Below are positions 6,501 to 34,966 of a stretch of DNA of 64,000 nt, in pieces (positions within the stretch are counted from its first letter, which is position 1; every line of letters starts with the position of its first letter). The notes under the pieces were generated by a model. That model was not told the DNA's origin, did not search any database, and saw nothing but the letters and a program-made list of their open reading frames with translations. A program made the translations under genes and the position numbers. The stretch is from Pseudoduganella dura (GTDB lineage Bacteria > Pseudomonadota > Gammaproteobacteria > Burkholderiales > Burkholderiaceae_D), in the NCBI RefSeq assembly GCF_009727155.1, contig NZ_WNWM01000002.1, positions 6,820,001 through 6,884,000 of the forward strand. Direction: 5' to 3'.

Positions 6501-6785
6501 AATGCCGGCTGAGTTGCCGGCCGAGTTGCAGCTTGCCGGCAGCGCCGCGCAACGCCTGGGCACCGGACCGCCGCGTGCTGAACGCGCCCCGCGGCGGTAC
6601 CGGTGTCCAAGAATCCGGTTTCCGGTCCGGCGGCGGCCGGGCCGGCTTCCCGGTCGTTCCAACGCTCCCTGCCGCTGGCACCGGGCTGCGAATCGGCGCA
6701 TACTGGCATGGCACCGTCCTCGTCGCATCATCCACTGCAACGATCTTGCGGCGCCGCCACGACCGGCCCCGCGCAAGGAGACAGT
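6501..6785 (+). other. Intergenic region upstream of the transsulfuration operon
   Basis: It lies between the protease stop and the strong ribosome binding site (AAGGAGAC) of the cystathionine beta-synthase gene. I see no gene, no clear hairpin with a T-run and no riboswitch I recognise. Confidence 0.4.
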
Positions 6786-8174
6786 ATGCCAAGCACGCTG
6801 GAACGCTCTCCCGTGGCCGCGCTGTATGGCCTGATCGGCAACACCCCGCTGGTCGAAGTGACCCGCCTCGATACCGGCCCTTGCCAGCTGTTCCTGAAAC
6901 TCGAATCCCAGAACCCGGGCGGCTCGATCAAGGACCGCATCGCGCTGTCGATGATCGAGGCCGCCGAGCGCGATGGCCGGCTGCGGCCGGGCGGCACGAT
7001 CATCGAAGCCACCGCCGGCAATACGGGCCTCGGCCTCGCGCTCGTCGGCCGCATCAAGAACTACCGGGTAGTGCTGGTGGTGCCGGACAAGATGGCCACC
7101 GAAAAGGTATTGCACCTGAAAGCCCTGGGCGCCGAGATCCACATCACCCGCTCCGATGTCGGCAAGGGCCACCCCGAGTATTACCAGGACATGGCCGCCC
7201 GCATCGCCGCCGACATCCCCGGCGCGTTCTATGCCGACCAGTTCAACAATCCCGCCAATCCGCTGGCGCACGAAACCACCACCGGCCCGGAAATCTGGCA
7301 GCAGGCGGGCCAGCAGCTCGATGCGATCGTGGTGGGCGTGGGGTCGTCGGGCACGCTGACCGGCCTGTCGCGGTATTTCGCCAGGGCCAATCCGCAGCTG
7401 GAATTCGTGCTGGCCGACCCGAAAGGCTCGATCCTCACCGAGTTCCTGCGCACCGCCAGGGTGCCGCCGACCAGCGGCTCGTGGGCGGTGGAAGGCATCG
7501 GCGAGGATTTCGTGCCGTCGATCGCCGACTTTTCGCGCGTGAAGCACGCGTACACGATCACCGACCGGGAAAGCTTCGACAGCGCGCGCGAACTGGTGCG
7601 GGCCGAAGGCATCATCGGCGGCTCGTCGACCGGCACGCTGCTGGCCGCGGCCCTGAAATACTGCCGCGAGCAGACGGCGCCGAAACGCGTGGCGACCTTC
7701 GTCTGCGACACGGGGACCCGCTACCTGTCGAAAATGTACAACGACGGCTGGATGTTCGACCAGGGCCTGATCGAACGGGCGCCCACCGGCGATTTGCGCG
7801 ACCTGATCGGCCGCCGCTACGATGCCGGCGAGGTGGTCAGCGTGGCGCCGTCGGACACGCTGCTGGTGGCGTTCAACCGCATGCGCGCGGCCGACCTGGC
7901 GCAGCTCCCCGTGATCGAGAACGGCACCCTGGCGGGCATCATCGACGAGTCGGATCTGCTGCTGAAGCTGAGCGATCACGCGCAGGAATTCGCCGGCCGG
8001 GTGGGCGACACGATGACGACCCGGCTGGAAACGCTGCACCCCGGCGACAGCGTGCAATCGCTGCGCGGCACGCTCGACCGCGGCCTGACCGCCGTGGTGG
8101 CCGACGACCGCCAGTTCTACGGCATGATCACCCGCTACGACCTTCTCAACCACCTGCGCAGGACGCTATCGTGA
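6786..8174 (+). CDS. Cystathionine beta-synthase
   Basis: The enzyme condenses serine (or O-acetylserine) with homocysteine to cystathionine, the first step of reverse transsulfuration. The PLP-binding lysine is K49 in GGSIKDR, and the GGSSTGT phosphate loop follows further on. A tandem CBS domain pair occupies about residues 330-462, so a regulatory ligand may bind. The ATG at 6786 has AAGGAGAC in front and removes an unsupported 61-codon extension. The stop overlaps the GTG start of the next gene by four bases, which marks a two-gene operon converting homocysteine to cysteine. Some bacterial members act as cysteine synthases; the downstream lyase favours CBS. Confidence 0.9.
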   Translation: MPSTLERSPVAALYGLIGNTPLVEVTRLDTGPCQLFLKLESQNPGGSIKDRIALSMIEAAERDGRLRPGGTIIEATAGNTGLGLALVGRIKNYRVVLVVPDKMATEKVLHLKALGAEIHITRSDVGKGHPEYYQDMAARIAADIPGAFYADQFNNPANPLAHETTTGPEIWQQAGQQLDAIVVGVGSSGTLTGLSRYFARANPQLEFVLADPKGSILTEFLRTARVPPTSGSWAVEGIGEDFVPSIADFSRVKHAYTITDRESFDSARELVRAEGIIGGSSTGTLLAAALKYCREQTAPKRVATFVCDTGTRYLSKMYNDGWMFDQGLIERAPTGDLRDLIGRRYDAGEVVSVAPSDTLLVAFNRMRAADLAQLPVIENGTLAGIIDESDLLLKLSDHAQEFAGRVGDTMTTRLETLHPGDSVQSLRGTLDRGLTAVVADDRQFYGMITRYDLLNHLRRTLS

Positions 8175-9400
8175 CCGAGACCAATCAAGAACAGCAAACC
8201 CGGCAGCAAAACGAACAGCACGGCGGCGACCGGCCGGACCGGCAGCACCTGGCCACGCGCGTGATCCACGCCGGCCAGTACCCCGATCCGTCGACCGGCG
8301 CGATCATGCCGCCGATCTATGCCACGTCGACCTTCGTGCAGCAAAGCCCCGGCGTGCACAAGGGCCTGGACTACGGCCGCTCGCACAACCCCACGCGCTG
8401 GGCGTTCGAGCGCTGCGTGGCCGACCTGGAAGGCGGCGCGCAAGGCTACGCGTTCGCCTCCGGCCTGGCGGCGATCTCCACGGTGCTCGAACTGCTCGAC
8501 GCCGGCTCGCACATCGTGGCCGGCGACGACATGTACGGCGGCAGCTACCGCCTGTTCGAGCGGGTGCGCCGCCGCAGCGCCGGCCACGAATTCACGTATG
8601 CCGACCTGACCGACCCGGAAAACCTGCTCGCCGCGCTGCGCCCGGAAACGAAGATGGTGTGGGTGGAAACCCCGACCAATCCGATGCTCAAGCTGGCCGA
8701 CCTGGCGGCCATCGCCCGCATCTGCCGCGAGCGCGGCATCATCGCCGTGGCGGACAACACGTTCGCCAGCCCGATCGTGCAGCGCCCGCTGGAACATGGC
8801 TTCGACATCGTCGTGCACTCGGCCACCAAGTACCTGAACGGCCACTCGGACATCATCGGCGGCATCGCCGTCGTGGCCGGCGAGGAGCGGCAGGCCGCAT
8901 GGCGCGAGCAGCTCGGCTTCCTGCAGAATTCCGTGGGCGCGATCCTCGGTCCGTTCGACAGCTTCCTGGCCCTGCGCGGCGTGAAGACGCTGGCGATCCG
9001 CCTGGAACGCTACTGCGCCAGCGCGCTCGAACTGGCGCAGTGGCTGCACGAACAGCCGAAGGTGCGCAAGGTGTTCTACCCCGGCCTTGAAACGCACCCG
9101 CAGCACGAACTGGCGCGGCGCCAGATGGAAGGCTTCGGCGGCATCATCTCGATCGACCTGGCCACCGACCTGGCCGGCGCGCGGCGTTTCCTGGAGCGCT
9201 GCGAAGTGTTCGCGCTGGCCGAAAGCCTGGGCGGCGTGGAAAGCCTGATCGAACACCCGGCGCTGATGACGCATGCGACGATCCCGGCCGCTCAGCGCGC
9301 GCAACTGGGGATCGGCGACGGCCTGGTGCGCCTTTCCGTGGGCATCGAGGACGTGGGCGACCTGCGCAGGGACCTGGCCGGCGCGCTGGCCGCGATCTGA
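8171..9400 (+). CDS. Cystathionine gamma-lyase (PLP-dependent transsulfuration enzyme)
   Basis: A 409-aa Cys/Met-metabolism PLP enzyme. The internal aldimine lysine is K220 in the SATKYLNG motif. It most likely cleaves cystathionine to cysteine, 2-oxobutyrate and ammonia, given its coupling to the beta-synthase. The sequence class also contains cystathionine gamma-synthases and methionine gamma-lyases, so the exact reaction rests on context. The GTG start at 8171 overlaps the previous stop (GTGA). The first ~25 residues are Gln/Glu-rich and precede the conserved TRVIHAG block. Confidence 0.9.
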   Translation: MTETNQEQQTRQQNEQHGGDRPDRQHLATRVIHAGQYPDPSTGAIMPPIYATSTFVQQSPGVHKGLDYGRSHNPTRWAFERCVADLEGGAQGYAFASGLAAISTVLELLDAGSHIVAGDDMYGGSYRLFERVRRRSAGHEFTYADLTDPENLLAALRPETKMVWVETPTNPMLKLADLAAIARICRERGIIAVADNTFASPIVQRPLEHGFDIVVHSATKYLNGHSDIIGGIAVVAGEERQAAWREQLGFLQNSVGAILGPFDSFLALRGVKTLAIRLERYCASALELAQWLHEQPKVRKVFYPGLETHPQHELARRQMEGFGGIISIDLATDLAGARRFLERCEVFALAESLGGVESLIEHPALMTHATIPAAQRAQLGIGDGLVRLSVGIEDVGDLRRDLAGALAAI

Positions 9401-9446
9401 GCGGCCGGCCCGGCCCGCGTTCCCGCGCGGCCGATCGGGTGCCCCG

Positions 9447-10844
9447 CTAATCCGGCCGCCGCGCTTCGTCCTTGCCGAACACGCGCTGGACGAAATTTTC
9501 CAGCGCGCGGAACACGCCTTCGACGCCGAAGCCGGCGATGAACGACAGCGCCGACCCGGACAGCGCCCACGCATCGAGCAGGCCTTTCGATTCGCCGGGC
9601 GCCGCGCCGGAAGGGTTGATGAACAGGCCGATGCAGGCGCCGATGGTGCCGCCCAGCGCCAGCTGCAGCAGCGCCAGCGTCGAGTCGCGCGGCGACAGCA
9701 GGCTTTCCCGCATGCGTTCCCACAACCGGCGCAGCACGGCAGCGCCCGCGCCCAGCACGCCGTAGGCCAGCGGCAGCAGCGACGTGCCCACCACCAGGGT
9801 GACGATCCGGGCCATTTCCTCGGTGCCGCGGCGGCGCACGTTCAGCTCTTCCGGGTCCTGCGTGGGCGGCGGCTCGAAGCGGTAGAACGCGCCGTAGAAC
9901 GCCCGCCACGGGGCCAGCCACTCGCGCAGGTTCATCCGCACTGCGCGGCGCTCCTCGCGCAGTGCCTCGGCGCGGGAGCAGTACTGGTATTCCTCCGTGG
10001 TGCGGTAGCGCGGCGTTTTGTCCGGGTCCGCCAGCGTGCAGAAGCGCACCGGTTCCGGATCGCGCGCCAGCCTGCCGGTGGCATCGGCCGCCATCAGCCG
10101 CGCGCGCTCGTCGGCCGTGTATTTCAGTTCGGCGGTGGAGATCTCCGCGCGCAGTTCGCTCGTGTGCCGGCGCACCACATCGAGGTGGCCGAGGATCACG
10201 TTCCCCGCCGCCACGTGCCACGACAGCACGCAGGTGAACGCCAGGGACGACAGCAGGAACAGCACGAGCCACAGCATGCGCCGGTTGAAGTTGATGGCCA
10301 CGCCGATCAGGCCCGGGTAGGCGTAACGGGCCAGCGTGACGCGCGTGGGCTTGTCCCACAGTTCCCCGCCCTGCCGTCGCTGCGCCAGTACCGCCGGCGG
10401 CGCTTCCTCGCCGCTGCGCCTGAACAGGTCGCACAGCAGGCGGCGTACCTTGTTCAACTTCTTGCGCCGGTCTTCCTCGCCAACGACGAGGATCGTGAAC
10501 GCCACGGTGAGCCCGGTCGCCGGGCGCGCCACGGCGTTCAGCATGTCCTTCGCGCGCATCAGGGCCACGGCCTGCGTCAGGCGCAGCACGGGGTCGGTGG
10601 CGGGGGCAAGCCCGATTTCGCAGATGGTGCCGATGATCAGCGCCGGGTCGGCCCCGGTTTCGGCGCGCAGGTCCTTGTCCCAGCGGCCGGAGATATGGTC
10701 GAGCAGCAGGAAGACTTCGTACAGCTCGCGCACGAAAATGAATTCCTCGAGCCGCACCCTTTCGCCATCGCCCGGCGCAGGGTCGGGTGGCGGCCCGGGT
10801 GGCGGCCCGCGGGTTGGACCAATTTCTTCGGGGGTTGTGGACAT
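9447..10844 (-). CDS. Unknown integral membrane protein
   Basis: A 465-aa protein that I do not recognise. It opens with a Pro/Gly-rich stretch, then a mixed helical region. Hydrophobic segments lie at about 105-120 (weak), 190-215 (strong, LWLVLFLLSSLAF), 345-370 and 390-415, with another near 430-450. A soluble Arg/Glu-rich domain separates the second from the third. The ATG at 10844 is preceded by GGAGGAGG; a GTG four codons upstream would bury that site. The gene converges with the cystathionine lyase and is probably single. No catalytic motif is visible. Confidence 0.75.
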   Translation of the reverse strand: MSTTPEEIGPTRGPPPGPPPDPAPGDGERVRLEEFIFVRELYEVFLLLDHISGRWDKDLRAETGADPALIIGTICEIGLAPATDPVLRLTQAVALMRAKDMLNAVARPATGLTVAFTILVVGEEDRRKKLNKVRRLLCDLFRRSGEEAPPAVLAQRRQGGELWDKPTRVTLARYAYPGLIGVAINFNRRMLWLVLFLLSSLAFTCVLSWHVAAGNVILGHLDVVRRHTSELRAEISTAELKYTADERARLMAADATGRLARDPEPVRFCTLADPDKTPRYRTTEEYQYCSRAEALREERRAVRMNLREWLAPWRAFYGAFYRFEPPPTQDPEELNVRRRGTEEMARIVTLVVGTSLLPLAYGVLGAGAAVLRRLWERMRESLLSPRDSTLALLQLALGGTIGACIGLFINPSGAAPGESKGLLDAWALSGSALSFIAGFGVEGVFRALENFVQRVFGKDEARRPD

Positions 10845-10950
10845 GGCCTCCTCCACCGTGCTGGTGAGGCCATTCTACGCCCGCGCCGCCCGCCCGATGG
10901 CCGGCGGCGTCAGCCGCTTTTGCGCAAACGAGACACTGGCGTGCGCACTA

Positions 10951-11012
10951 CAGCCCCGGAATCACGGCCCGGAATCACAGCCCTGAATCACAGCCCTGAA
11001 TCACAGCCCTGG
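10951..11012. repeat. 13-bp tandem repeat at the 3' end of the acylase gene
   Basis: About four to five copies of a 13-base unit close to CAGCCCTGAATCA run from 10951 to the acylase stop codon region. The innermost copy includes the stop, so the repeat probably arose by slippage there. Confidence 0.75.
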
Positions 11013-13220
11013 ATGGTACTGCCGCTCCAGCTGCTTCAGCACGTCTTCCTTGTAGAACAGCACGTCCTTGAACTCGCCGCGCGCATACATCTCCGCCTGG
11101 TCGCTGAAGTGCGGCGACGCCGGATCGCCGCTCTGCCCGCCGGCCAGGATGCTTTTCGCGCGGATCTTCGGCCCGAACTCGACGGCGGCCACGAAGCTGT
11201 TGCCCCGGTCGCCGTAGATGCGCTTCGTGGTTTGCGGCGACGTCATGCCGTACGCCGCCAGCGCGCCCCAGTTGCCGGAGGCATAGGGCACCGGGATGCT
11301 GGGCTTGCTGTCGTCGAACGGCTGCACGATGTCGCCAGTGAGCCGCTGGAACCGGTTGATCTCGCCCCATGGCGTGCGCCACGTGCCGAACGCGCTCTCC
11401 AATCTTGCCGACGCGCGCGACAGCGCCTCCAGCCGCTGCACCGGCGTGAGGCGCTTCTCGGCATATTCGAGCACCGGCATGCCCTCCTCCTTCGCCGCCG
11501 GTCCATGGGTCTTCACCAGGTCCTGCAGCCAGTAGATGCCCAGCGACGTGGGCACCGACGTCAGTGAATAGCGCATGTCCCAGTCGCGCAGCTCGGCGAC
11601 CTGGCCCGCCAGGCCGGCCTTTTGCAGCGAGCTTGCCGGGGTTTCATCGTAGGCCTGCACCAGCAGCGGCAGCAGCGGCTCGAACGCCGTCAGGCGGCTG
11701 TCGTAGGCCGCCGCGATCAGCGATTCCAGCGTGAAATCGTTTTTGTTTTCCAGCACGCGCACGGCGTGGATGCCGCGCGGGTTTTCCGGGTTCATCGACA
11801 TGTAGGCGGGATAATCCTGCCTGCGCGGGCTGTATTGCCCGGCCGCCGAATAGGGCCAGTTGTTCGTGTTCTGGATCCAGCCGTTCTTCGGATTGAACAG
11901 GCGGATGGTTTCCTCCACGCTGTGCAGGCCCTTCCAGTCGGTGGCCGGATCGCTGCCGTCCACCGGTTTCGTGTAATCGAAGCGCGGGTCGCGTTTCGGA
12001 ATGAAATTGCCGTGGAAATAGGCGATATTGCCGTCCGCATCGGCATACACGGTGTTGTTCGACGAATTGGTGCGCAGCGCCATCGCCTTCCAGAACGCCT
12101 TGTAGTCGCGCGCCTTGGTGCGCAGGTACGACTGCTGCAGCGCCTTCAGCGGCTCGTTCATCAGCGCCACGGACACCCACTTGTCGCCCTCGCGCCGCAC
12201 CACCGGGCCATGGTGCGTGAAATAGGCGGTGACCTTCTTTTCCGCCATGCCGCCGATGACCTTGAACGGCAGGGTGATCTCCACCTCCTTCACCTGGCGC
12301 AGTTCCTTGCCGTACTGGTACCAGTACTTGCCGTCCTTCCTGACGACGGTTTCCAGGAACTCGTCGATGACGTCGCCGCCGCCGGACGTGTGCATCCAGC
12401 CCAGCCGGTCGTTGAACCCCTGGTAGACGAAGAACTGGCCCCACGTGACGGCGCCGTAGGCATTGAGCCCCGCCTCGCTGACCACGTGGATCTCGGGCCG
12501 GAAGTAGAACGACGTGTGCGGATTGATCATCAGGAGCGCGTTGCCGCTGCTGCTGATCTTCGGCGCGATGGCGAAGCCGTTCGAGCCGCCCGGCTCCTTG
12601 TCCAGGCCGCCGCGACCGGACGCCGACGGGGATTCCTGCAGAGGCGCGGCGGCCAGCACCGGGATATCCGCGTAAAAACGGTGCAGCGCCGGCACGTCCA
12701 CTTCCTCGATGTCGCCGCCGATGCTGCCTTCCGAGAAGCTCAGCGCCATCCACGGCTCGAAGCGCGCGATCAGTTGCGGCCGCACCTGCGGGTGCGTGTG
12801 CAGGTACCAGTTCAGGCCATCGGCCCAGGCGTTCATCAGCCCCTTCAGCCATGCCGGGCTGGCCTTGTACTGCGCCTTGAGCCCTTCGGGACGGATGAAC
12901 AGCTTCATCCGCAGGTCTTCATACAGCGCCTTTTCGCCGTCCACCTCGGCCGTGCGGCCCAGCGCGGTGATGAAATTGCGCTCCACCCGCCGGAAATCGT
13001 CTTCCGCCTGCGCGAACAGCATGCCGAAGACCGCATCCGCATCCGTCTTGCCGTACACGTGCGGGATGCCCCACCTGTCGCGCAGGATCGTCACGCGCTT
13101 GGCCTGCGCCTGCAGGCGCAGCACCTCGGCGGCATCGAGCTTCGTGGCCGCCGGCCCGGCGGGAGCCGCCAGCGCAGCGATCGGAAGGAGGCAGGCAATT
13201 GCGACGGCGGTTCTCGGCAT
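11001..13220 (-). CDS. Penicillin acylase family protein (Ntn-hydrolase)
   Basis: A 739-aa exported amidohydrolase of the group that includes penicillin G acylase and acyl-homoserine-lactone acylases. The signal peptide spans about residues 1-19 (ending ALAAPAG). The N-terminal nucleophile is S213 in GGSNGFAIA, exposed by autocatalytic removal of a spacer between the alpha and beta chains. Other typical blocks are WGIPHVYG near residue 50 and a HGPV block in the beta chain. The ATG at 13220 has AAGGG upstream and directly begins the signal peptide, so the in-frame ATG five codons upstream is not used. The substrate could be an AHL signal or another amide. Confidence 0.9.
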   Translation of the reverse strand: MPRTAVAIACLLPIAALAAPAGPAATKLDAAEVLRLQAQAKRVTILRDRWGIPHVYGKTDADAVFGMLFAQAEDDFRRVERNFITALGRTAEVDGEKALYEDLRMKLFIRPEGLKAQYKASPAWLKGLMNAWADGLNWYLHTHPQVRPQLIARFEPWMALSFSEGSIGGDIEEVDVPALHRFYADIPVLAAAPLQESPSASGRGGLDKEPGGSNGFAIAPKISSSGNALLMINPHTSFYFRPEIHVVSEAGLNAYGAVTWGQFFVYQGFNDRLGWMHTSGGGDVIDEFLETVVRKDGKYWYQYGKELRQVKEVEITLPFKVIGGMAEKKVTAYFTHHGPVVRREGDKWVSVALMNEPLKALQQSYLRTKARDYKAFWKAMALRTNSSNNTVYADADGNIAYFHGNFIPKRDPRFDYTKPVDGSDPATDWKGLHSVEETIRLFNPKNGWIQNTNNWPYSAAGQYSPRRQDYPAYMSMNPENPRGIHAVRVLENKNDFTLESLIAAAYDSRLTAFEPLLPLLVQAYDETPASSLQKAGLAGQVAELRDWDMRYSLTSVPTSLGIYWLQDLVKTHGPAAKEEGMPVLEYAEKRLTPVQRLEALSRASARLESAFGTWRTPWGEINRFQRLTGDIVQPFDDSKPSIPVPYASGNWGALAAYGMTSPQTTKRIYGDRGNSFVAAVEFGPKIRAKSILAGGQSGDPASPHFSDQAEMYARGEFKDVLFYKEDVLKQLERQYHPGL

Positions 13221-13338
13221 TTCAGGACCCTTCATGGCGGTGGATTGGGTGATGCGGGATGCGGCGTGTTGCGGTTACATATATAAAAGGTCGAAGATAA
13301 AGACCGGCCCGTCATGGGCCGCTCCACGATGCAGCGGA

Positions 13339-14187
13339 CTACGATGCGTCGACCAGCTGTTCGATCCGGTCGCGCAGCCCGGCATTCTCGGCACGCAGCG
13401 CGGCATTCTTTGCCTTCAGCTCGGCCACTTCCGCGCGCAGGTGCTCGACTTCCGTCAGCGGCTGGCCCGGCTGCGATGGTGTCTCGCCACCATCCTCCCA
13501 CGGGGCCGGCTTCGCCGGCTTGGCCGGGCGGGATGCGGCGCGCTGGTCGCGCACTTCCTTCGCGGCCTGCTGCAGCGATTTCTTGCCGCCGGCGACGGCG
13601 CTGACCTGGTCTTCCGCCGGCAGCGACGCCACGGTGGCCGCGGCGTTGATCGAGATCGTGCCGGTGCGCACGGCTTCCACCAGTTCCGGCGTGGCCGTCT
13701 TCTGGATCTTCTCGATCTGCGAGATGGTATTGCTGGACAGGCGCGCGGCGCGCGCGATGTCCTCGCGCGACGTGCGCACCTTCGGCGCGGCCGCTTCGGC
13801 ATCGGAGTCGGGCGGCGCGATGGCCGCATCTTCCGCCCTGATGCGCGCGGCGTCGGCTTCCAGCCGCTTGGCCAGGATATCCTTCTTGCGCAGCGCGAGC
13901 ACGCCGCGCTGGAAGTCGGACACGCTGCGGCGGCCCAGGTGGTTGTCGATCATCCACAACATCACGTCTTCCATGCTGCCGAAGCGTTCGTTCTGCACGA
14001 CCTTGAAGGGAATGCCGTGTTTCTGGCAGATGGCATAGCGGTTATGGCCGTCGACGAGCACGTCGTTCCACAGCACGAGCGCATCGCGGCACCCTTCGGC
14101 CAGCAGGCTGCGCTCGAGCGCATCGTGCTCGGCCTCGGTCAGCGGCTCGATATAGGCGCGCAGACTGTCGTTAATCTGGATTTGCAT
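13339..14187 (-). CDS. ParB/RepB-like partition-type protein
   Basis: A 282-aa protein with a ParB N-terminal nucleotide-binding-like motif (VDGHNRY at about 45-51), a central helix-turn-helix region around 155-180 (SREDIARAARLSSNTIS), an Ala/Lys-rich linker and a C-terminal coiled coil at about 240-280 with regular Leu/Glu/Ala heptads. It has no ParA neighbour and is on the chromosome, so a regulatory role is as likely as segregation. The ATG at 14187 has AAGGA eight bases upstream. It lies next to tRNA-Leu at the border of the low-GC island. Confidence 0.75.
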   Translation of the reverse strand: MQIQINDSLRAYIEPLTEAEHDALERSLLAEGCRDALVLWNDVLVDGHNRYAICQKHGIPFKVVQNERFGSMEDVMLWMIDNHLGRRSVSDFQRGVLALRKKDILAKRLEADAARIRAEDAAIAPPDSDAEAAAPKVRTSREDIARAARLSSNTISQIEKIQKTATPELVEAVRTGTISINAAATVASLPAEDQVSAVAGGKKSLQQAAKEVRDQRAASRPAKPAKPAPWEDGGETPSQPGQPLTEVEHLRAEVAELKAKNAALRAENAGLRDRIEQLVDAS

Positions 14188-27292: not shown

Positions 27293-28681
27293 TCAGAAAT
27301 TCATCGGCAGCCGCACCGACAGCGAAACGTCCGGCGTATCCTGCGTCAGGCCGGCGCCCACCGTCACGTTGATGGTGCGCTGGTTGTTCAGCCGGTAGGA
27401 AAACCCCATCAGCAGCGTGCCCAGCTGGGTACGCACCGAACCCGGCACCGGCACGCCATCCTGCTTCGTGCGGGACATCGAGCTGTGGTCGTAGCCGAGG
27501 CTGAGCGACGCCTTGTCGTTCAGCGCCAGGCCCACGCCGAAGTTGAAGCCGAGCACCCCGCCCGGCTTGATCTCGCCGAGCCATTCCATTGCGCCGTCCA
27601 GCACCTGCCGCTCCACGTCCTTGCGCTTCACGGTGTGCAGGTAGCTGACGCTGCCGAAGAAGATCGCCGGGTCCGACGGGAACAGCCAGGTCAGGCTCGG
27701 CTGCACGCCGTAGAACCCCGAGCCCGTGGGCAGGTCCAGCGGCAGGCCGGTGCCGGTGGCGTTCTGGCCCACGCAGCGCTGCGTGCAATCGGTGACGACT
27801 TCGAACGGGTCGCGGCCGGTACGCGACTTGATGCGCAGCCCGGCGATGTAGTACGGCTTGTCGATGCCGCCGTCGTTCAGCTGGTGGCGCAGCGACAGCT
27901 CGACGTCGCCGATCGCCCTGCCGCTGGTCTCGAACACGCGTTCGACCGCCGTGCCGGTGAACAGCTCGCGGCTCACCGTCGAATCGGAGCGGTACACGTA
28001 GGGCACGCGCAGCTCCAGTTCGGTACGGTTGGTCAGCCCATAGCGGCCGGTCATCGCCGCGGTGAACGTGTTGCGCTTGACCTCGCGCACGTCGACCAGA
28101 CCGATCAGCAGCGCCGGAATGATCGTGTAGCCCACCAGCGCCACGCGGTTGCTCGACGAATAGCCGAACTGGAACGATGGTTCCAGCACGTACCTGCCGC
28201 GCGCCGTCAGCACGCCGGGCGCTTCGAACAGGGGCGCCACTTCGGGCGGCCGGCTGTCGCGCTGCGGCGCCTGGCCGACGGCCGGCGCGGCCGGTGCCGG
28301 GCCCGGCATCGGTGCCTGCCCCGGCGGCTGCAGCGGCGGCTGCGGCTGCGACTGCGGCGTGCCGCCCGTGCCCCGCAGCGCCTCGAGCGCCGCCGCCGCC
28401 ATCGGGCGCTGCGCCGGCACGGCCGCGGCCCGCGGCGCACCCGCCTGCGGCCACAACTCGGGGATGACGGCCTGCCGCTGCGCGGCCAGTTCGGCGCGCA
28501 TCTGCCTGAGCAGCTCGCGCTGCTCGGCCAGCTCCTGCTTCAGTTCGCGCAGCTCGGCGGAAAGCTCGGCCGGGGAGCGCCCGCCCGCGGGATCCGGCGG
28601 CGGCTCCTGCTGCGCGAAGGCGCTGAGCATGCACAACGATAGACCGGCCGGGCCGGCACGCAGGATCTGGGGAAGCGGCAT
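27293..28681 (-). CDS. FapF-like outer-membrane beta-barrel with N-terminal coiled coil
   Basis: A 462-aa exported protein. A signal peptide (about 1-23, ending AFAQQ) is followed by a Glu/Leu/Arg coiled coil (about 38-72), a Pro/Ala/Gln-rich linker (about 75-150) and a C-terminal barrel of alternating beta strands (about 165-462) ending in phenylalanine, the usual outer-membrane insertion signal. This order matches FapF, the trimeric channel that exports Pseudomonas functional amyloid; the barrel also resembles the phenol-degradation MetA type. AGGAGA precedes the ATG at 28681. It is the last gene of a five-gene operon containing a C39 peptidase, as fapF is in Pseudomonas. Homology to FapF is inferred from architecture and context. 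Confidence 0.75.
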   Translation of the reverse strand: MPLPQILRAGPAGLSLCMLSAFAQQEPPPDPAGGRSPAELSAELRELKQELAEQRELLRQMRAELAAQRQAVIPELWPQAGAPRAAAVPAQRPMAAAALEALRGTGGTPQSQPQPPLQPPGQAPMPGPAPAAPAVGQAPQRDSRPPEVAPLFEAPGVLTARGRYVLEPSFQFGYSSSNRVALVGYTIIPALLIGLVDVREVKRNTFTAAMTGRYGLTNRTELELRVPYVYRSDSTVSRELFTGTAVERVFETSGRAIGDVELSLRHQLNDGGIDKPYYIAGLRIKSRTGRDPFEVVTDCTQRCVGQNATGTGLPLDLPTGSGFYGVQPSLTWLFPSDPAIFFGSVSYLHTVKRKDVERQVLDGAMEWLGEIKPGGVLGFNFGVGLALNDKASLSLGYDHSSMSRTKQDGVPVPGSVRTQLGTLLMGFSYRLNNQRTINVTVGAGLTQDTPDVSLSVRLPMNF

Positions 28682-28707
28682 GCGTTGTTCTCCTTGGTCG
28701 TGTGCCC

Positions 28708-29196
28708 TCAGCGCGGCACGATGGCGGTCGACAGTGCCTGGCGCAGGCTGTCGCCGAAATTGAGGTCCTTCATGATCGACGCGCTGTTGACGGTCGCATC
28801 GATCGTGGTCTGGGCGCGGATCAGCTGGTTGTTGACGCTGTTCTGCAGCACCAGGCCCATCGCCGGCGGATTCTCCAGCAGCAGCGCGTTGCCGGCGCCA
28901 AACTGGGCCGTGTGGAACGACGCCGTGCCGATGCCGGCCGCGGCGGCTTTCGCCACGTCCGGCACGGCCATCTGGCTGCTGGCGATCGTGTTGCCGTTCA
29001 GGCTCAGCAGGCGATCGACGGACAGCGAGACCAGCAGGCCGTTGCCGGCATCGAAGCCGCCGCGCGAGCCGGCCAGCAGCGTTTCGTCGACGGCGAGCCA
29101 GCCGTCCGGCGGGCTGTCGGCCCGCGCGGCGGGCGCGCACAGCAAGGACAGCAGGGACAGCGAGCACAGATACGGCGCCGGCCACAATGGTTTCAT
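28708..29196 (-). CDS. Small exported protein with double-glycine-like site (FapE position)
   Basis: A 162-aa protein with a signal peptide (about 1-26) and the segment VDETLLAGSRGG ending at residue 47, which resembles the leader cleaved by C39 peptidases. The rest is rich in Asn, Ala, Leu and Ser, with LENPPAMGLVLQNSVNNQL near 110-128. That block resembles the IQNSGANVLIQNATI block of the small protein encoded two genes upstream, so the two are probably distant paralogues. It lies between the C39 peptidase and the barrel gene, the position of fapE in Pseudomonas. GGGGAG supports the start. It may be a minor fibre subunit or an export partner. Confidence 0.65.
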   Translation of the reverse strand: MKPLWPAPYLCSLSLLSLLCAPAARADSPPDGWLAVDETLLAGSRGGFDAGNGLLVSLSVDRLLSLNGNTIASSQMAVPDVAKAAAAGIGTASFHTAQFGAGNALLLENPPAMGLVLQNSVNNQLIRAQTTIDATVNSASIMKDLNFGDSLRQALSTAIVPR

Positions 29197-29223
29197 GGTT
29201 GTCTCCCCAGCATGATTGTTTCC

Positions 29224-29907
29224 CTAATAGTCGCCGGCGTCGAACTTGGGCAGCGTGATGCGCTGCAGGCTGTCGCGCTCCAGTGCCAGGCCGGGCTGCA
29301 GGCGCGGCGCCACGGCCCAGTCTTCCTCGGCATTGAAACGGGGCTTGCCCGGCCGGCCGTGGATCACGAACAGCAGCTGGTTCAGCCAGATCTTTTCAAA
29401 CGCGGCGCGCGGCATCGCGCGGGTGCCGCCCGCGGGATCGCCCAGCAGAACGCGCCCTTCCCGCACGCCCTTCACGACCACGAAGTGGTGGTAGCCATGC
29501 TCGGCCACCAGCACGATGGCGGGAAAGCCCGACTTCGCCAGCTCGTCCAGCGGCTGCTGGAAGCCGTCCGCCGTGAACCCGTGCGCGCCCAGGAAGCCCT
29601 TCATGTCGAGCAGCGAAAACCCTTCGCGGCGAATGCGTGCCTGGTCGCCGCGCTGGAACATCTCTGCGAATGCCTGCTGCTCGGTGACCGGATAGCCGTA
29701 GTGATAGGTGAGCAGCGTGGCCAGCGCCGCCGACCCGCAGCTGAAATCGAACTGCTGGCGCACCGTCGACAGGTAGCGCACTTCCTTCATGCTCTTGACG
29801 CGCAGCGTCACCGGCCCGCCGCCCGCGAGCGGCAGGTCGGCCGCCCGCGCCGCCGGCACCGCGATGAACACGGCGGCAAGCGCCGTTGCCACCCGCCGCG
29901 CCGTCAT
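29224..29907 (-). CDS. C39-family cysteine peptidase, FapD-like
   Basis: A 227-aa exported stand-alone C39 (bacteriocin-processing) peptidase. A signal peptide covers about 1-22. The catalytic residues are C57 in DFSCGSAA, H141 in the YHHFVVV motif and D157 in LLGDPAG; the oxyanion Gln is probably Q51 or Q52. Unlike bacteriocin exporters it has no ABC transporter domains, as in FapD. The start ATG overlaps the upstream stop by four bases (ATGA). Its likely substrates are the double-glycine-like sites of the two small neighbours. A C-terminal extension of about 40 residues follows the peptidase fold. Confidence 0.85.
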   Translation of the reverse strand: MTARRVATALAAVFIAVPAARAADLPLAGGGPVTLRVKSMKEVRYLSTVRQQFDFSCGSAALATLLTYHYGYPVTEQQAFAEMFQRGDQARIRREGFSLLDMKGFLGAHGFTADGFQQPLDELAKSGFPAIVLVAEHGYHHFVVVKGVREGRVLLGDPAGGTRAMPRAAFEKIWLNQLLFVIHGRPGKPRFNAEEDWAVAPRLQPGLALERDSLQRITLPKFDAGDY

Positions 29908-30392
29908 CGCATCTGCAGGTTGACGATCGTGGCGTTCTGGATCAGCACGTTGGCGCCCGAGTTCTGGATCACCATCGGCAAGCCCGACGCATTGCTGAAC
30001 GCGCCATCGGTGATGATGTTGGCGCCGGTGACCACGTTGGTGGCTGCGTTGTTGCCCACCGTGCCGCCCAGTTTCATGTCGCTCCACGGCGTGTCGGTGC
30101 CGCCGCGCAGTTCGGCCAGGCGGTCGTCGCCGATTGCCCTTGCTGCCCCGCCGTGCGGTGAAGGCAGCGCCAGCGCGGGCAGCGCGGGCGCGGGCGCCGT
30201 GCCGGCCGCCACCGCGAACTCGCGCGGCGCGGTGGTGGCCGCCCCTGCCTGCGGTGGCTGCGCGTGGGCGCCCAGCCACCCGGTGGCCAGCAGCGCCGCC
30301 CCGCAGGCCCGCGCCAGGCCCGCCGTTCGCCGCGCCCGATGGCGCGGCCCGCTGTGCATCATTGTCCGCATCATGCTTTGCTGGTCATGCAT
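29904..30392 (-). CDS. Small exported protein with double-glycine leader-like site
   Basis: A 162-aa protein. A basic N-terminus leads into a hydrophobic segment (about 25-45), then an Ala/Pro-rich stretch, then IGDDRLAELRGG ending at residue 98. This agrees well with the double-glycine leader consensus (acidic residues, Leu-x-x-Leu, Gly-Gly). The following ~64 residues are Asn/Gly/Ala-rich and end in a beta-forming VIQNSGANVLIQNATIVNLQ block. AGGAGG precedes the ATG at 30392. Translation is coupled to the C39 peptidase gene downstream. It may be a nucleator or minor component of the putative fibre. Confidence 0.65.
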   Translation of the reverse strand: MHDQQSMMRTMMHSGPRHRARRTAGLARACGAALLATGWLGAHAQPPQAGAATTAPREFAVAAGTAPAPALPALALPSPHGGAARAIGDDRLAELRGGTDTPWSDMKLGGTVGNNAATNVVTGANIITDGAFSNASGLPMVIQNSGANVLIQNATIVNLQMR

Positions 30393-30452
30393 GTCGCCTC
30401 CTCGATGTCCGGAAAGCCGCCGCCCGGAAGACCGGACGGCGGCCTGGTCGAA

Positions 30453-30470
30453 GCCGGCCCGCGGGCCGGC
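30453..30470 (-). terminator. Perfect GC palindrome after the Gly-rich gene (possible attenuator)
   Basis: GCCGGCCCGCGGGCCGGC is a perfect palindrome 14 bases after the Gly-rich gene stop. There is no T-run, so it may lower, not stop, transcription into the four downstream genes or protect the upstream mRNA end. Confidence 0.45.
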
Positions 30471-30483
30471 CGGTGCGCTCCGC

Positions 30484-32751
30484 TTAGCGGCCCACGCCCA
30501 GGTTGGCCTGCACGTTGATGCTTTGCTGCACGAGCGAGCTGATGCCGCTGCTCTGGCTGATGACGGAAATGCCGGCCGCCGATTGCGCCACGCCGCTCAT
30601 CGTGTTCGACATGTTGAACACACCGGCATTGACGGTGTTGGTGCCGCCGGCACCGCCCGTGCCGCCCGCGGCATTGCCCGCGGTCGCCGAAGCCGTCGTG
30701 GCGCCGGTCGCGCCGCCGGCCCCGCCGCTGCCCGCACCGCCGGCACCGCCCGCACCGCCGTCGCCGGCCGTGGCATTGCCGTTGGTCGCGGCACCGCCGG
30801 TGCCGGCGCCGCCCGTCGTGGTGCCCGCCGTGGCGGTACCGCCCGTGGCCGCGCCGCCTGCCGCACCGGCACCGGCGGTGTTTTCCGCCGAGCCGCTGGC
30901 CGCGCCGGTGCCACCGGCGGCACCGGCCGCGCCGGCACCGGCCACGCTGGAGCCGCTGCCACCCGCCGCACCGTTGCCGCCGGTGCCGCCGGTGCCGGCC
31001 GCGCCCGCGCCGCCCGTCGTGCTGGCCGTGGCGCCGGCACCGCCGGCGCCGCTGGTGTTGGTGCCGCCCGCCGCGCCCGCGCCGCCGGTGTTGGTTCCCG
31101 CCGTGCTGGCACCGCCCGCCGATCCCGAGCCGCCGGCCGCGCCCGCGCCGCCCGTGGTGCTGGCCGTCGCGCCCGCGCCACCGGCGCCGCTGGTGTTGGT
31201 GCCGCCTGCCGCACCCGCGCCGGCCGTGTTGCTGCCTGCCGCGCCGGCACCGCCGGCTTCCCCGGCACCGCCGGCCGCGCCCGCGCCGCCCGCAGCCCCG
31301 GCACCGCCCGCGCCGCCCGTGTTGGTGCCTGCGGTGGCCGTGGTGGCGCCCGTGGTGGCCGAACCACCCGTGCCGGAACCGCCCGAGCCCGCGCCGCCGG
31401 TGCCCGTGCCGCCGGTGCCTGCCGCGCCGGTGCCGGTGCCTGCCGTTGCCGTGCCGGTGCCGGCACCGGCGGTCTGGTCGCCCGACGTGCCGGGATTGGT
31501 GCCCGATGGCGTGCCGGTCGTGTTGCTGGCGGTGGACCCGCCGCTGGTCGCACCGCCGGCACTGCCCGTACCGCCAATACCCGTAGCACCGGTACCGTTG
31601 CCGCCAGGGCCGTTGCCGCCCCAGCCACCGGCCGCCGTGGCGGTGCCGCTCGCGCTGGTATTGCCCGACGAGGCGCTGCCGCCCGCCGCGCCGGAACCGC
31701 CGGCGCCACCGGCGCCGCCTGCCGCGCCGCTGCCGCCGCTGCCGCCAGCCCCGCCGGTTGCGGCACCCGTGTAGCCGCCGGAACCGCCCTGTCCGCCGTT
31801 GGCATAGCCGCTGCCGCCGCCGGCGCCGCCGGTTGCCGCGCCGGCCAGGCCACCCGCGCCGCCCGCCGCGCCGCTGCCGCCCGCACCGCCCGCGCCGCCG
31901 TTGGCGTTGCCGGTACTGCCGCCGGCGCCGCCGGCCCCGCCGCTGGCATTGCCGCTGCCGCCACCGGCACCGCCGGTCGCCGCGCCGGCCAGGCCGCCCG
32001 CGCCGCCGCTACCGGCACCGCCTGCCGCGCCACTGCCGCCCGCGCCGCCGTAGCCGTCGGAGCTGGTGCCGCCGGCACCGCCCGCGCCACCCGTGCCGCC
32101 GGCGCCGCCGGCGCCCGACGTGGCCCCGCTTGCCGCACCGCCGGCACCGCCGGCGCCGGCATAGGCCGCGCCGGTGTTGGCGTTGCCGCCCGTGGCGGCG
32201 CCGCCAGTGCCTGCGCCGCCGTTGGCGCTACCGTTGGTCGCCACGCCGCCGATCGAACCGGAGGCGCCCGCGCCGCCCTGCCCGGCCGCGCCGTTGCCGC
32301 CGGTGGCGCTGGCGTTGCCGCCGCCCGCGCTGCCACCCATGCCGCCGGCGCCGGTGCCGCCGTTGGCGTTGCCGCTGTTGGTGGCGACATTGCCGATGTT
32401 CTGCACGTTGTTGCCGGTGACGGTGCCCGTCAGCGTGCTGACGGCGGTGGCCGTCGAGGTGTTGAAGGCGTTATCGAGGCTGGACGTGGCCGTGGCGCCG
32501 TTGTTCGCGGCGGCGGCACCGATGGCCAGCGCGCGGGCGTCGCCACTGCTGTTGTTGTTGGCGTTGGCCTGACTGGAATCGTTGTTGCGGTTGGAGCTGG
32601 AATCATTGTTGCGATTGCTGCTGCTGTCCTGTACCGCCGACGCGTTGTCGGTGGCATGGGCACCGGCGCCGCTCTGCGTCGTCGTGGTCTGGGCCTGCGC
32701 CCCAACGCTGAAGGCAAGTGCGATTGCTGCGGCAAGCATGGTTTTTTTCAT
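30484..32751 (-). CDS. Gly/Ala-rich repeat protein, putative surface fibre subunit
   Basis: A 755-aa exported protein. The signal peptide is about residues 1-20 (ending VGAQA). An Asn/Ser/Asp-rich region (about 20-75) with a duplicated SSSNRNND block and an Ala/Thr/Asn region with NNVQNIGNVATNSGNANGG follow. Residues ~130-690 are almost entirely Gly, Ala, Thr, Ser and Asn in GGAGGAG-type repeats, with one unit of about 25 residues repeated (GGTNTSGAGGAGATAST). The C-terminal ~50 residues are non-repetitive and Gln/Ser/Val-rich (VISQSSGISSLVQQSINVQ). It is the first gene of the Fap-like operon, behind a sigma-54 promoter, and fits the role of the main exported polymer. GAGGAT precedes the ATG at 32751. 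Confidence 0.75.
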   Translation of the reverse strand: MKKTMLAAAIALAFSVGAQAQTTTTQSGAGAHATDNASAVQDSSSNRNNDSSSNRNNDSSQANANNNSSGDARALAIGAAAANNGATATSSLDNAFNTSTATAVSTLTGTVTGNNVQNIGNVATNSGNANGGTGAGGMGGSAGGGNASATGGNGAAGQGGAGASGSIGGVATNGSANGGAGTGGAATGGNANTGAAYAGAGGAGGAASGATSGAGGAGGTGGAGGAGGTSSDGYGGAGGSGAAGGAGSGGAGGLAGAATGGAGGGSGNASGGAGGAGGSTGNANGGAGGAGGSGAAGGAGGLAGAATGGAGGGSGYANGGQGGSGGYTGAATGGAGGSGGSGAAGGAGGAGGSGAAGGSASSGNTSASGTATAAGGWGGNGPGGNGTGATGIGGTGSAGGATSGGSTASNTTGTPSGTNPGTSGDQTAGAGTGTATAGTGTGAAGTGGTGTGGAGSGGSGTGGSATTGATTATAGTNTGGAGGAGAAGGAGAAGGAGEAGGAGAAGSNTAGAGAAGGTNTSGAGGAGATASTTGGAGAAGGSGSAGGASTAGTNTGGAGAAGGTNTSGAGGAGATASTTGGAGAAGTGGTGGNGAAGGSGSSVAGAGAAGAAGGTGAASGSAENTAGAGAAGGAATGGTATAGTTTGGAGTGGAATNGNATAGDGGAGGAGGAGSGGAGGATGATTASATAGNAAGGTGGAGGTNTVNAGVFNMSNTMSGVAQSAAGISVISQSSGISSLVQQSINVQANLGVGR
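30650..32390 (-). repeat. GC-rich coding repeats of the Gly/Ala-rich gene
   Basis: Degenerate 9- and 12-base units encoding GGA, GAG and GAA triplets fill this stretch. Two longer near-identical copies lie at about 31010-31090 and 31140-31220. The opposite strand therefore shows long but artificial Pro/Ala frames. Confidence 0.85.
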
Positions 32752-32819: not shown

Positions 32820-32835
32820 TGCAAGCTTGATGCCA
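32820..32835 (-). promoter_or_regulatory. Sigma-54 (-24/-12) promoter of the Fap-like operon
   Basis: The minus strand reads TGGCATCAAGCTTGCA: GG and GC are separated by exactly 10 bases, and the flanks match the TGGCAY-N5-TTGCW consensus. It lies about 70 bases upstream of the Gly-rich gene start, which leaves a leader of about 55 bases. Confidence 0.8.
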
Positions 32836-33166: not shown

Positions 33167-34543
33167 TCAGGCGCGCCGCCGCGGCGGCAGCTTGATGTCG
33201 TGCTTGGCCATCAGCCGGTACAGCGTCATGCGCGACACGCCCAGTTCCTGGGCCAGCAGCGTAATGCTCTTGCCGGCGGCCAACCCGGCCGCGATCGCCA
33301 GCCTTTCGGCCTGCACGCGGGCGCCGTTCAACGGCAGCGTGAACCCGGCACCGGCTTCGGTCAGGCCCAGGTCCTCCGGCATGATCAGGCGCCCTTCGGC
33401 CATCACCGAGGCGCGGCGCACGCGGTTGAGCAGCTCGCGCACGTTACCCGGCCAGTCGTGGGCGCGCAGCGCCGCGAGCGCCGCACGGGAAAAGCCCTTG
33501 ACGCCGGCCGCCCGCTCGCAGGCGTAGTCGTGGAAGAAGGTCTCGGCGAGCGGCTGCACGTCGTCGAGCCGCTCGCGCAGCGCCGGTACCTCGAGCGACA
33601 GCACGTTCAGGCGGTAGAACAGGTCTTCGCGAAAGGCGCCGCGTTCGACCGCCTCCTCCAGGCGCACGTTCGATGCGGCCACGATGCGCACATCCACGGC
33701 CAGCGGCCGGTTTCCGCCCAGCCGGTAGATGGTCTTTTCCTGCAAGAAGCGCAGCATGTTCGCCTGCATGTCCAGCGGCAGGTCGCCGATCTCGTCCAGG
33801 AACACCGTGCCGCCGCTGGCCGATTCGATCAGGCCGATGCGCGCCTTGCCGGCGCCCGTGAAGGCGCCGCGCTCGTTGCCGAACAGCTCCGACTGGATCA
33901 GGCCCGCCGGGATCGCCCCGCAGTTGATGGGCACGAACGGACCGGCGCGCCGCGCCGAGTTCTCGTGCACGCCGCGCGCCACCAGTTCCTTGCCGGTGCC
34001 GCTTTCGCCCCAGATCAGCACGGGTGCCTCGGCACGGGCGGCCTTCAGTGCGCGCTGGCGCAGGGCCGTGATCGCCGGGCTGTTGCCGGTCATTTTCATG
34101 CCGCCGCCACGGACGAGGCGCGGCATGGTATCGCCCAGCGCGGCGAAGCCATAGGCGTGCCCGAGGGTATGGCCGAGCCGGGCCGGATCGATGGGAAACG
34201 TGTGGTAATCGATACAGTGATCGCGGATCAGCCGCCGCCATCGCTCGTCCTGCAGGGTGTCGCCACGGCACGCCGCCACCCAGGTCACCCACGGGTGTTC
34301 GCGCAGGAAAAGGTCGATCGCTTCGGCGGGCACGGCGGCGCCCAGCTCGATGATGCCCACCAAGATCGTCCGGCTGCTCAGCAGTGTTCGCGCATGGTCG
34401 AGATCGCGTGCCGCGGACAATTCGAAATTGCGCGCGGCCATCAGTGCGGCACTTGCTTCCCAGCTTCCGGATGTGATGCCCAGAAGTTTTTTTATGAACA
34501 TTGTATCGACAGTTGAATGTTCCGCATCGCGCCCATTTCTCAT
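33167..34543 (-). CDS. Sigma-54-dependent transcriptional activator, VpsR-like
   Basis: A 458-aa activator with an N-terminal atypical receiver-like domain (about 1-140) of the VpsR kind that lacks an obvious phospho-Asp pocket, an AAA+ domain with Walker A GESGTGKE, the sigma-54 contact loop GAFTGA, Walker B in VFLDEIGDLP and a C-terminal Fis-type helix-turn-helix (SITLLAQELGVSRMTLYRLM). VpsR proteins control matrix genes in response to c-di-GMP, and several c-di-GMP enzymes are encoded in this window. It lies directly upstream of, and parallel to, the Fap-like operon and most likely activates it. The start is uncertain: the ATG at 34501 is an alternative and neither has a clear ribosome binding site. 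Confidence 0.85.
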   Translation of the reverse strand: MRNGRDAEHSTVDTMFIKKLLGITSGSWEASAALMAARNFELSAARDLDHARTLLSSRTILVGIIELGAAVPAEAIDLFLREHPWVTWVAACRGDTLQDERWRRLIRDHCIDYHTFPIDPARLGHTLGHAYGFAALGDTMPRLVRGGGMKMTGNSPAITALRQRALKAARAEAPVLIWGESGTGKELVARGVHENSARRAGPFVPINCGAIPAGLIQSELFGNERGAFTGAGKARIGLIESASGGTVFLDEIGDLPLDMQANMLRFLQEKTIYRLGGNRPLAVDVRIVAASNVRLEEAVERGAFREDLFYRLNVLSLEVPALRERLDDVQPLAETFFHDYACERAAGVKGFSRAALAALRAHDWPGNVRELLNRVRRASVMAEGRLIMPEDLGLTEAGAGFTLPLNGARVQAERLAIAAGLAAGKSITLLAQELGVSRMTLYRLMAKHDIKLPPRRRA

Positions 34544-34966
34544 GGTTGAGCGTCGAACCCTGAAGCCGTGTTCACCCGCACGCGGACGAACCAATCAATT
34601 GCGCAAATCCCTCAACTACTCATTAATGAACCAACTATCAATTTTAAATACGAATCAACAGTGAATATTCGGCACTATAGGCCAGCGTCCGCAAAGGCGC
34701 CAATATTGATAAGAAAATACACCGCCGCGTCTTAACATTCGCTGCAACAGTCGACGGCGCACCACAAGCGGGGGCGCAAGGCGTGGACCGGATCGAGCGG
34801 ATGCAGGTATATACGCGGCGGGAATGGATTTGGATGCAGGCTTCAGCGAAAAAAGCTCGCTGGCAGTAGATGGCGGATGTTGCTGCCGGTAATGTGCGAG
34901 AGACTTTCGCGCGGCAGGATCGCGGGAAGGCCTGATTGCGCCTCGCAAGCGGGGGCCGCGGACGTG
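34544..34966. other. Intergenic region upstream of the activator gene
   Basis: The first ~180 bases (to about 34730) are A/T-rich with several promoter-like boxes and probably drive the activator gene. The rest is ordinary high-GC sequence in which I see no gene. Confidence 0.4.

Follow-up and report, generated by a model that had tools for sequence, protein, structure and literature searches.

A gene cluster on the minus strand of a 64,000-nt stretch of the Pseudoduganella dura genome (contig NZ_WNWM01000002.1, positions 6,820,001 to 6,884,000; hereafter the window) encodes a Gly/Ala-rich repeat protein, two small proteins (sp1 and sp2), a C39 peptidase and an outer-membrane barrel. We consider it likely that the cluster is an operon for fibre export under sigma-54 control, which belongs to a lineage related to the canonical Fap system but distinct from it and works by a leader-cleavage mechanism. 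In the mechanism we propose, the repeat protein, sp1, sp2, the peptidase and the channel would all reach the periplasm by Sec. There the peptidase would cut a double-glycine pro-leader (LxxxRGG) off sp2 and, in most species, also off sp1, in parallel to FapD, which is predicted to act on FapE at LxxxRG[RK]. Removal of the leader would license export via the FapF-type channel. Outside the cell, the subunits would polymerise via short Gln/Asn-rich end modules into a putative amyloid. The Gly/Ala interior would take no part in assembly and would instead act as a spacer or as a soft coat of the fibre.

Gene set, peptidase and channel

The preliminary description of this DNA, given for positions 27293 to 32751, had proposed the order repeat protein, small protein, C39 peptidase, small protein, barrel. 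All five genes were indeed found on the minus strand, at the places and in the order given there. That interval omits the sigma-54 activator (34594-33167) and a promoter-like site (32835-32821). The gene set is conserved. Genome contigs were scanned with the peptidase alone, which gave 119 relatives. The best 80 were kept, and together with the window and its paralogue (L005) they make up 82 loci. The peptidase is present in 82 of these, sp1 in 81, sp2 in 81 and the barrel in 79. In 80 of the 82 loci sp1, the peptidase and sp2 stand in this order on one strand; the barrel then follows on the same strand in 57 loci and lies nearby on the opposite strand in 22. An upstream open reading frame (ORF) of low complexity (more than 50% Gly/Asn/Ser/Thr/Gln/Ala) is found in 76 of the 82 loci. 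Taken together with the conserved order, this argues that the gene set is not due to chance. The set, whose co-occurrence elsewhere the preliminary description had left to be checked, is widespread. A complete paralogous set, including the regulator, is present in the same genome (G000:C2, ~284-291.5 kb; L005, G000:C2:278000-296000, 6387-13561).

The peptidase matches the FapD model with an E-value of 1.1e-36 (126 bits) and the double-glycine protease domain 6mpz with 9.7e-8. The catalytic Cys and Asp patterns were found in 82/82 loci, and the His pattern in 82/82 in its broad form and in 48/82 in its narrow form. A Pfam search found no ATP-binding cassette (ABC) exporter domain in the peptidase. 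The N-terminal stretches of the peptidase, sp1 and sp2 look signal-like by eye. By homology, the enzyme is a FapD-type C39 peptidase with its catalytic residues; it is stand-alone and, by eye, exported, as had been suggested.

For the barrel, the FapF model gave an E-value of 3.7e-44 and the FapF sequence in the Protein Data Bank (PDB) one of 8.6e-34. Its FapF score of about 151 bits, compared with 307-456 in canonical loci, is a difference of degree. The structure model (mean predicted local distance difference test, pLDDT, 79) has a helix at residues 37-72 and strands from residue 164 on. The 18 best Foldseek matches of this model are all FapF chains (8.6e-21; template modelling (TM) score by target 0.81). 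Homology and fold both identify the barrel as a FapF-type outer-membrane channel with the coiled coil that had been proposed for it; it is no unrelated porin.

The window-type peptidases form a separate branch. In a tree of 109 rows, 91 window-type peptidases lie on one side of a branch with support 100/96, 14 canonical rows group together (100/95), and a third type, of four rows, does so with support 100/99 (L023, L074, L132 and L153 were left out of the tree). The nearest named relatives of the window's peptidase are from Pseudoduganella species. Within the family, 33 of 145 genomes have peptidase matches with E<=1e-30, including weaker ones of a different class. Within the order, matches with E<=1e-40 were found in 23 of 300 genomes; neighbours were checked at few of the loci in either set. 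At E<=0.001, 69 of the 369 genomes searched in the class have FapF-family matches, and many of these matches are short or weak. In genome G012 both types occur on one contig (L128, L147), with some 90 kb between the canonical fap locus and the window-type one.

The third type consists of a C39 peptidase and a FapF-like barrel as a pair in the same family (L136-L139), with a peptidase branch of its own. Where its genes were listed, in L136 and L139, the pair has as neighbours a 180-aa protein and a larger outer-membrane protein, and no fibre-type genes were seen. The larger outer-membrane protein of L139 belongs to the FadL family (Pfam Toluene_X, 1e-47). Colocalised fapD and fapF homologues have been reported from five further phyla, so that the pair was already wider than Fap (PMC6173800). 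A search of the open-licence literature found no description of the window-type lineage.

The double-glycine leader and the likely substrate of FapD

C39 double-glycine leaders have hydrophobic residues at positions -12, -7 and -4 and end in GG, and sp2 carries such a leader. In the C39 domain of LahT, the leader residues at -4, -7 and -12 sit in a groove, and the ComA leader consensus is cited as Leu-12, Glu-8 and Leu-7 (PMC6363468). The pattern [LM]xxxRGG was found in 71 of 81 sp2 sequences (last 165 residues), compared with a mean of 0.7 and a maximum of 5 after shuffling. R-3 with GG is present in 81/81, including two spurious places (L016, L021). Position -12 is V, L, I or A in 77/81 and position -7 is Leu in 78/81, while position -4 is mixed. 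A Phe or Tyr stands right after LxxxRGG in 77/81. The motif also occurs in 47 of the 48 proteins from an sp2 homologue search, our own proteins included. The sp2 model (pLDDT 74.5) has a helix at residues 6-13. In sp1, [LM]xxxRGG was found in 53/81 sequences (shuffled mean 0.3, maximum 2). The sp2 proteins of Cupriavidus (L034, L037-L039, L041, L047, L053) have an Ala/Gly-rich insert of their own, about 100 residues long, between the leader and the C-terminal part.

A similar motif is present in canonical FapE. We picked FapE by its position between FapD and FapF, without selecting for the motif, and found [LM]xxxRG[RK] in 15/15 loci (shuffled mean 0.2, maximum 2). Position -12 is L, V or I in 15/15, and R55, G56, F67 and G68 are invariant in the alignment of the 15 FapE, in which the predicted site lies 44-90 residues from the first Met. 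A protein search returned 30 FapE homologues, 28 of them new, with the motif in 28/28 of the new ones. This is not a blind sample, as the motif was part of the query. The other two proteins are those of L122 and L133, one of which starts inside the motif. A profile of the 81 sp2 sequences matches that of the 15 FapE with a probability of 85.0 (E 6.4e-6, 34 columns), whereas the best of 20 shuffles reached 0.9. The 34 columns cover the leader and a short stretch beyond it. Both the FapE motif count and the profile match held when they were repeated without motif-based selection. A leader common to sp2 and FapE is well supported by these alignments.

The substrate of FapD has been an open question. 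In the excerpt available of their 2017 paper, Rouse et al. describe the Fap proteins as lacking canonical C39 sequences and the FapD target as unclear (PMC5557850). The same excerpt reports that, in strain UK4, only FapE lacked N-terminal peptides in mass spectra, over the first ~70 residues (PMC5557850); this fits removal at the predicted leader site. The excerpt available of a 2018 paper calls the FapD substrate yet to be determined (PMC6173800), and the later open-licence papers that we searched gave no answer. LxxxRG[RK] in FapE, together with LxxxRGG in sp2, suggests that FapD acts on subunits of the FapE type.

A broader claim is that FapD-family enzymes are periplasmic double-glycine leader peptidases, which would cut FapE/sp2 and FapA/sp1 at LxxxRG[G/R/K] and so license export. 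The window would then represent a second, largely unnamed Fap-type branch with a Gly/Ala brush, mostly in Betaproteobacteria and with relatives in Gammaproteobacteria and Geobacteraceae. We hold this claim with even confidence. In FapA, a looser form of the leader pattern was found in 4/5 sequences, with 0.3 expected.

Other proteins were considered as substrates. The GG-rich repeat protein is disfavoured; the leader pattern was found in 1 of 76 sequences where 3.0 were expected, so that the Gly/Ala protein is probably uncut. In the linker of window-type barrels LxxxRG occurs in 48/79 (shuffled mean 3.9, maximum 11), and a further C39 cleavage site is possible there. As a general cleavage site the FapF linker was rejected, as LxxxRG is found in 3 of 16 canonical linkers only, and the fuller pattern in 17 of 79 window-type linkers, several of these in signal peptides.

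Repeat protein, regulator and promoter-like site

The repeat protein contains 266 Gly and 183 Ala among its 755 residues. By eye, its layout is a signal peptide, a Ser/Asn-rich N-terminus, a short N-module, the Gly/Ala interior and a C-module. Of the 82 upstream ORFs, six were set aside by hand (L053, L068, L073, L074, L077, L084), and some of the remaining 76 are cut by contig ends. The full-length Gly-rich ORFs (59) span 335-839 codons from stop to stop. Gly makes up 17-37% of the whole ORF in 68/76. In the other eight, all of them in deep-branch loci, it amounts to just 4-9%. These are four Nitrosomonas loci and one each from a Burkholderiales, a Chromatiaceae and another gammaproteobacterial metagenome-assembled genome (MAG) and Geomesophilobacter, and they still have the peptidase, sp1, sp2 and the barrel. 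A loose 5-residue core of the C-module was found within the last 60 aa of 74/76 relatives, a count made with no shuffled control. Since Gly is variable and the C-module is kept across relatives, the interior appears to be a derived insert or spacer.

The Gly/Ala block sits between two short modules and is not the conserved or defining part of the protein. The preliminary description had taken the Gly/Ala polymer as the defining feature, which does not hold for the deep-branch loci. It had further suggested a new kind of surface fibre exported through a Fap-type channel. A Fap-type channel is supported; in place of a new kind of fibre, we prefer to see an export system of the same kind whose putative fibre protein has a hypertrophied, lineage-specific interior. 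A study of FapC suggests that long linkers may form flexible "fuzzy coats" about a conserved core (PMC12392863), and the Gly/Ala interior may, by analogy, be a cover of this kind.

The C-module matches sp1 in a profile comparison with a probability of 92.7, and is possibly a single Fap-like repeat. Pooled end modules matched FapB with a probability of 60.4 (shuffled 2.9) and FapB/C with 41.1 (18.4; 40 shuffles each). Against FapB/C the C-module by itself gave 3.8 (shuffled 20.7, 40 shuffles) and, in the other run, 2.7 (best of 20 shuffles 4.4). These matches are at or below the shuffled level and the pooled match is suggestive only, so that we do not take the C-module as an established Fap repeat. 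The sp1 profile, from which sp1 of L077 was left out, matched FapB/C with 48.6 (shuffled 7.4, 40 shuffles) and with 42.2 in the other run (best of 20 shuffles 1.3), a likeness to Fap repeats that is likewise no more than suggestive. The repeat-protein gene occurs in two tandem copies in L027, L030, L036, L042, L048, L049, L052, L055, L057, L059, L070 and L080. L066 likewise has a tandem pair when two analyses are combined.

The promoter-like site of the window starts 84 nt upstream of the ATG of the repeat gene. A -24/-12 site with at most one mismatch was found in 42 of 66 upstream regions (within 220 nt) with 1.1 expected from Markov-resampled regions, and the perfect consensus in 16/66 with 0.0 expected; 10 of 76 repeat genes were left out here because the upstream stretch was short or masked, and the loci are related. 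Over the window as a whole, -24/-12-type sites are not in excess. The evidence for the promoter is therefore its conservation. A relative of the VpsR-like regulator was found in at least 38 of the 82 loci, within limited flanks. With our own profile, a sigma-54 activator was found nearby in 14/16 canonical Fap stretches. In 9/15 canonical loci, a scan of several kb upstream of the peptidase, made with no control, found a site with at most one mismatch.

The features of the cluster are collected in Table 1. Purine-rich stretches that resemble ribosome-binding sites precede four of the five genes, as judged by eye, and the stop codon of sp1 is overlapped by the start of the peptidase gene.

Table 1. 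Features of the proposed fibre-export cluster, in window coordinates.
Feature	Position	Strand	Evidence or remark
VpsR-like sigma-54 enhancer-binding regulator, 475 aa, first gene of cluster	33167..34594	(-)	Pfam Sigma54_activat 1.4e-66, VpsR 7.1e-19
Sigma-54 (-24/-12) promoter-like site TGGCAT-N5-TTGC	32821..32835	(-)	one mismatch to TGGCAC-N5-TTGC
Gly/Ala-rich exported repeat protein, 755 aa, presumed main fibre subunit	30484..32751	(-)	low-complexity upstream ORF in 76/82 loci
Repeat-protein N-terminal module, residues 94-127, conserved	32371..32472	(-)	LxGxV..IGN-type pattern in 51/59 full-length Gly-rich relatives
Repeat-protein Gly/Ala interior, ~residues 128-707, lineage-specific	30631..32370	(-)	weak 3-residue Gly periodicity, 138-144 nt tandem units
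Repeat-protein C-terminal module, residues 708-755, conserved	30487..30630	(-)	loose 5-residue core, 74/76 relatives
sp1, small exported subunit, 162 aa, C-terminal module like that of the repeat protein	29904..30392	(-)	positional FapA/FapB counterpart
sp1 double-glycine leader end LAELRGG (I-12, L-7, L-4)	30099..30119	(-)	[LM]xxxRGG in 53/81 sp1
Stand-alone exported FapD-like C39 peptidase, 227 aa (Cys57; His in GYHHF; Asp in GDP)	29224..29907	(-)	Pfam Peptidase_C39 1e-20
sp2, small exported subunit, 162 aa	28708..29196	(-)	FapE-like by position and leader
sp2 leader end (V-12, L-7, R-3, GG) and predicted C39 cleavage site, after WLAVDETLLAGSRGG and before F	29053..29100	(-)	leader motif; helix 6-13 in model
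FapF-like outer-membrane channel (barrel), 462 aa, N-terminal coiled coil	27293..28681	(-)	profile and fold matches
Predicted long periplasmic helix (coiled coil), barrel residues 37-72	28466..28573	(-)	structure model
LEALRGTGG in linker between coiled coil and barrel, possible further C39 site	28361..28387	(-)	LxxxRG in 48/79 linkers

Alternative readings and comparison with known systems

The composition of the repeat protein would also suit a non-amyloid fibre, held together by packing of the Gly/Ala interior itself (silk-like or polyglycine-II-like), with the end modules serving only as caps or anchors. A 575-aa stretch of the interior holds 250 Gly, 150 Ala and 29 GGxGG, and its Gly autocorrelation reaches 0.22 at lag 3, where the 95% level of the shuffled maximum is 0.13. 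However, the GGx runs are short (longest 15 residues), and Gly is scarce in 8/8 deep-branch loci counted though the other four genes persist there. We regard packing by the interior as unlikely. The leader pattern on sp1 and sp2 could also belong to a bacteriocin-like system, with both as double-glycine peptides that the C39 peptidase releases and that are exported as toxins or signals, and with the repeat protein as an incidental neighbour. Against such a system stand the signal-like starts on the peptidase, sp1 and sp2, the low-complexity ORF upstream in nearly all loci and the match of the sp2 leader to FapE, and the peptidase has no ABC exporter domain; it seems to us very improbable.

Least probable in our judgement is that the barrel is an uptake channel for hydrophobic compounds (COG4313/FadL-like) and that its neighbours serve uptake. 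The COG4313 channel 4rl8 is the next fold match after FapF (4.5e-11), and the C39-barrel pair of L139 stands beside a FadL-family protein. The fold match to FapF is nevertheless far better, the L136-L139 peptidases form a separate branch, and the sp1-C39-sp2 order is kept in 80/82 loci.

Several observations weigh against a Fap-related fibre exporter with a cleaved leader, which remains the reading we favour. The peptidase and the barrel fall below the NCBIfam cut-offs for FapD (126 of 330 bits) and FapF (151 of 700 bits), although the FapF cut-off was reached by 0/369 genomes of the class, canonical ones included. The window's own sp2 has Ser at -4, Glu is found at -8 in just 10/79 sp2, and GG is absent from 25/81 sp1. 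Beyond the leader, sp2 does not match FapE (probability 4.0, E 0.01), and the likeness may come from convergence on the peptidase and not from common descent of the whole subunit. The sp2 model matched no PDB structure in the fold search. Among 40 shuffles, one or more (up to 71.3) outscored the match of sp1 to FapB (54.7), and that of the C-module to FapB (10.3) was not above the maximum of 40 shuffles (10.8). FapB/C proteins also fit the loose leader pattern (8/26, with 2.8 expected and a maximum of 7), so this loose form is not specific. The loci are related and their counts are not independent events, and the literature searched contained no experiment on the lineage.

Comparison with canonical Fap yields a precise and cheap prediction of the FapD substrate and of the bond that is cut. 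It also reveals a wide group of fibre-type loci; wherever one of the 48 sp2 homologues has a usable source name, it is labelled hypothetical or uncharacterised. Surveys that require Fap repeats would miss window-type loci, and one survey was filtered on such repeats, according to the part of the paper available (PMC12392863). The series of interiors, from Gly/Ala-rich to Asn/Asp/Ser-rich, is a natural set for how interior sequence tunes fibre properties.

Among known systems, the window is most profitably set beside Fap (fapABCDEF of Pseudomonas and relatives). Both have a FapF-type channel with a periplasmic coiled coil, a stand-alone FapD-type C39 peptidase, a small subunit with a leader, placed between peptidase and channel, a low-complexity exported main subunit and a nearby sigma-54 activator of the same family. 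Unlike Fap, the main subunit of the window has a 580-aa Gly/Ala interior and no detected Fap repeats, and one small sp1 takes the place of FapA/FapB by position. The window leader ends in RGG and the Fap leader in RG[RK], sp2 is unlike FapE past the leader, and the window-type peptidases are on their separate branch. The curated models for FapB (NF058557), FapC (NF058558) and FapE (NF058559) found nothing in the genome of the window (G000) or in the four relatives searched alongside, whereas each matched 3/3 canonical control genomes; the repeat protein had no hit at E<=1. For FapA, the curated models missed even the one canonical FapA given, and our own profile found it in 5/16 canonical stretches.

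The putative pilus system Fil (NF050078/NF050079) is also similar, with matches of the peptidase to FilB (2.1e-37) and of the channel to FilC (2.2e-14). These are far under the curated cut-offs (FilB 129 of 475 bits, FilC 53.6 of 630 bits), and the channel is nearer to FapF. The peptidase-containing ABC transporters LahT and ComA share the C39 domain and leader hydrophobics at -12, -7 and often -4. In contrast to these, the window peptidase is stand-alone and exported by eye, its substrates look Sec-type, and the exit is a barrel and not an ABC pump. The COG4313 uptake channels are not the closest fold, as 18 FapF chains outrank 4rl8. The locus would work like Fap, yet it is not a member of canonical Fap; it is a separate, related lineage.

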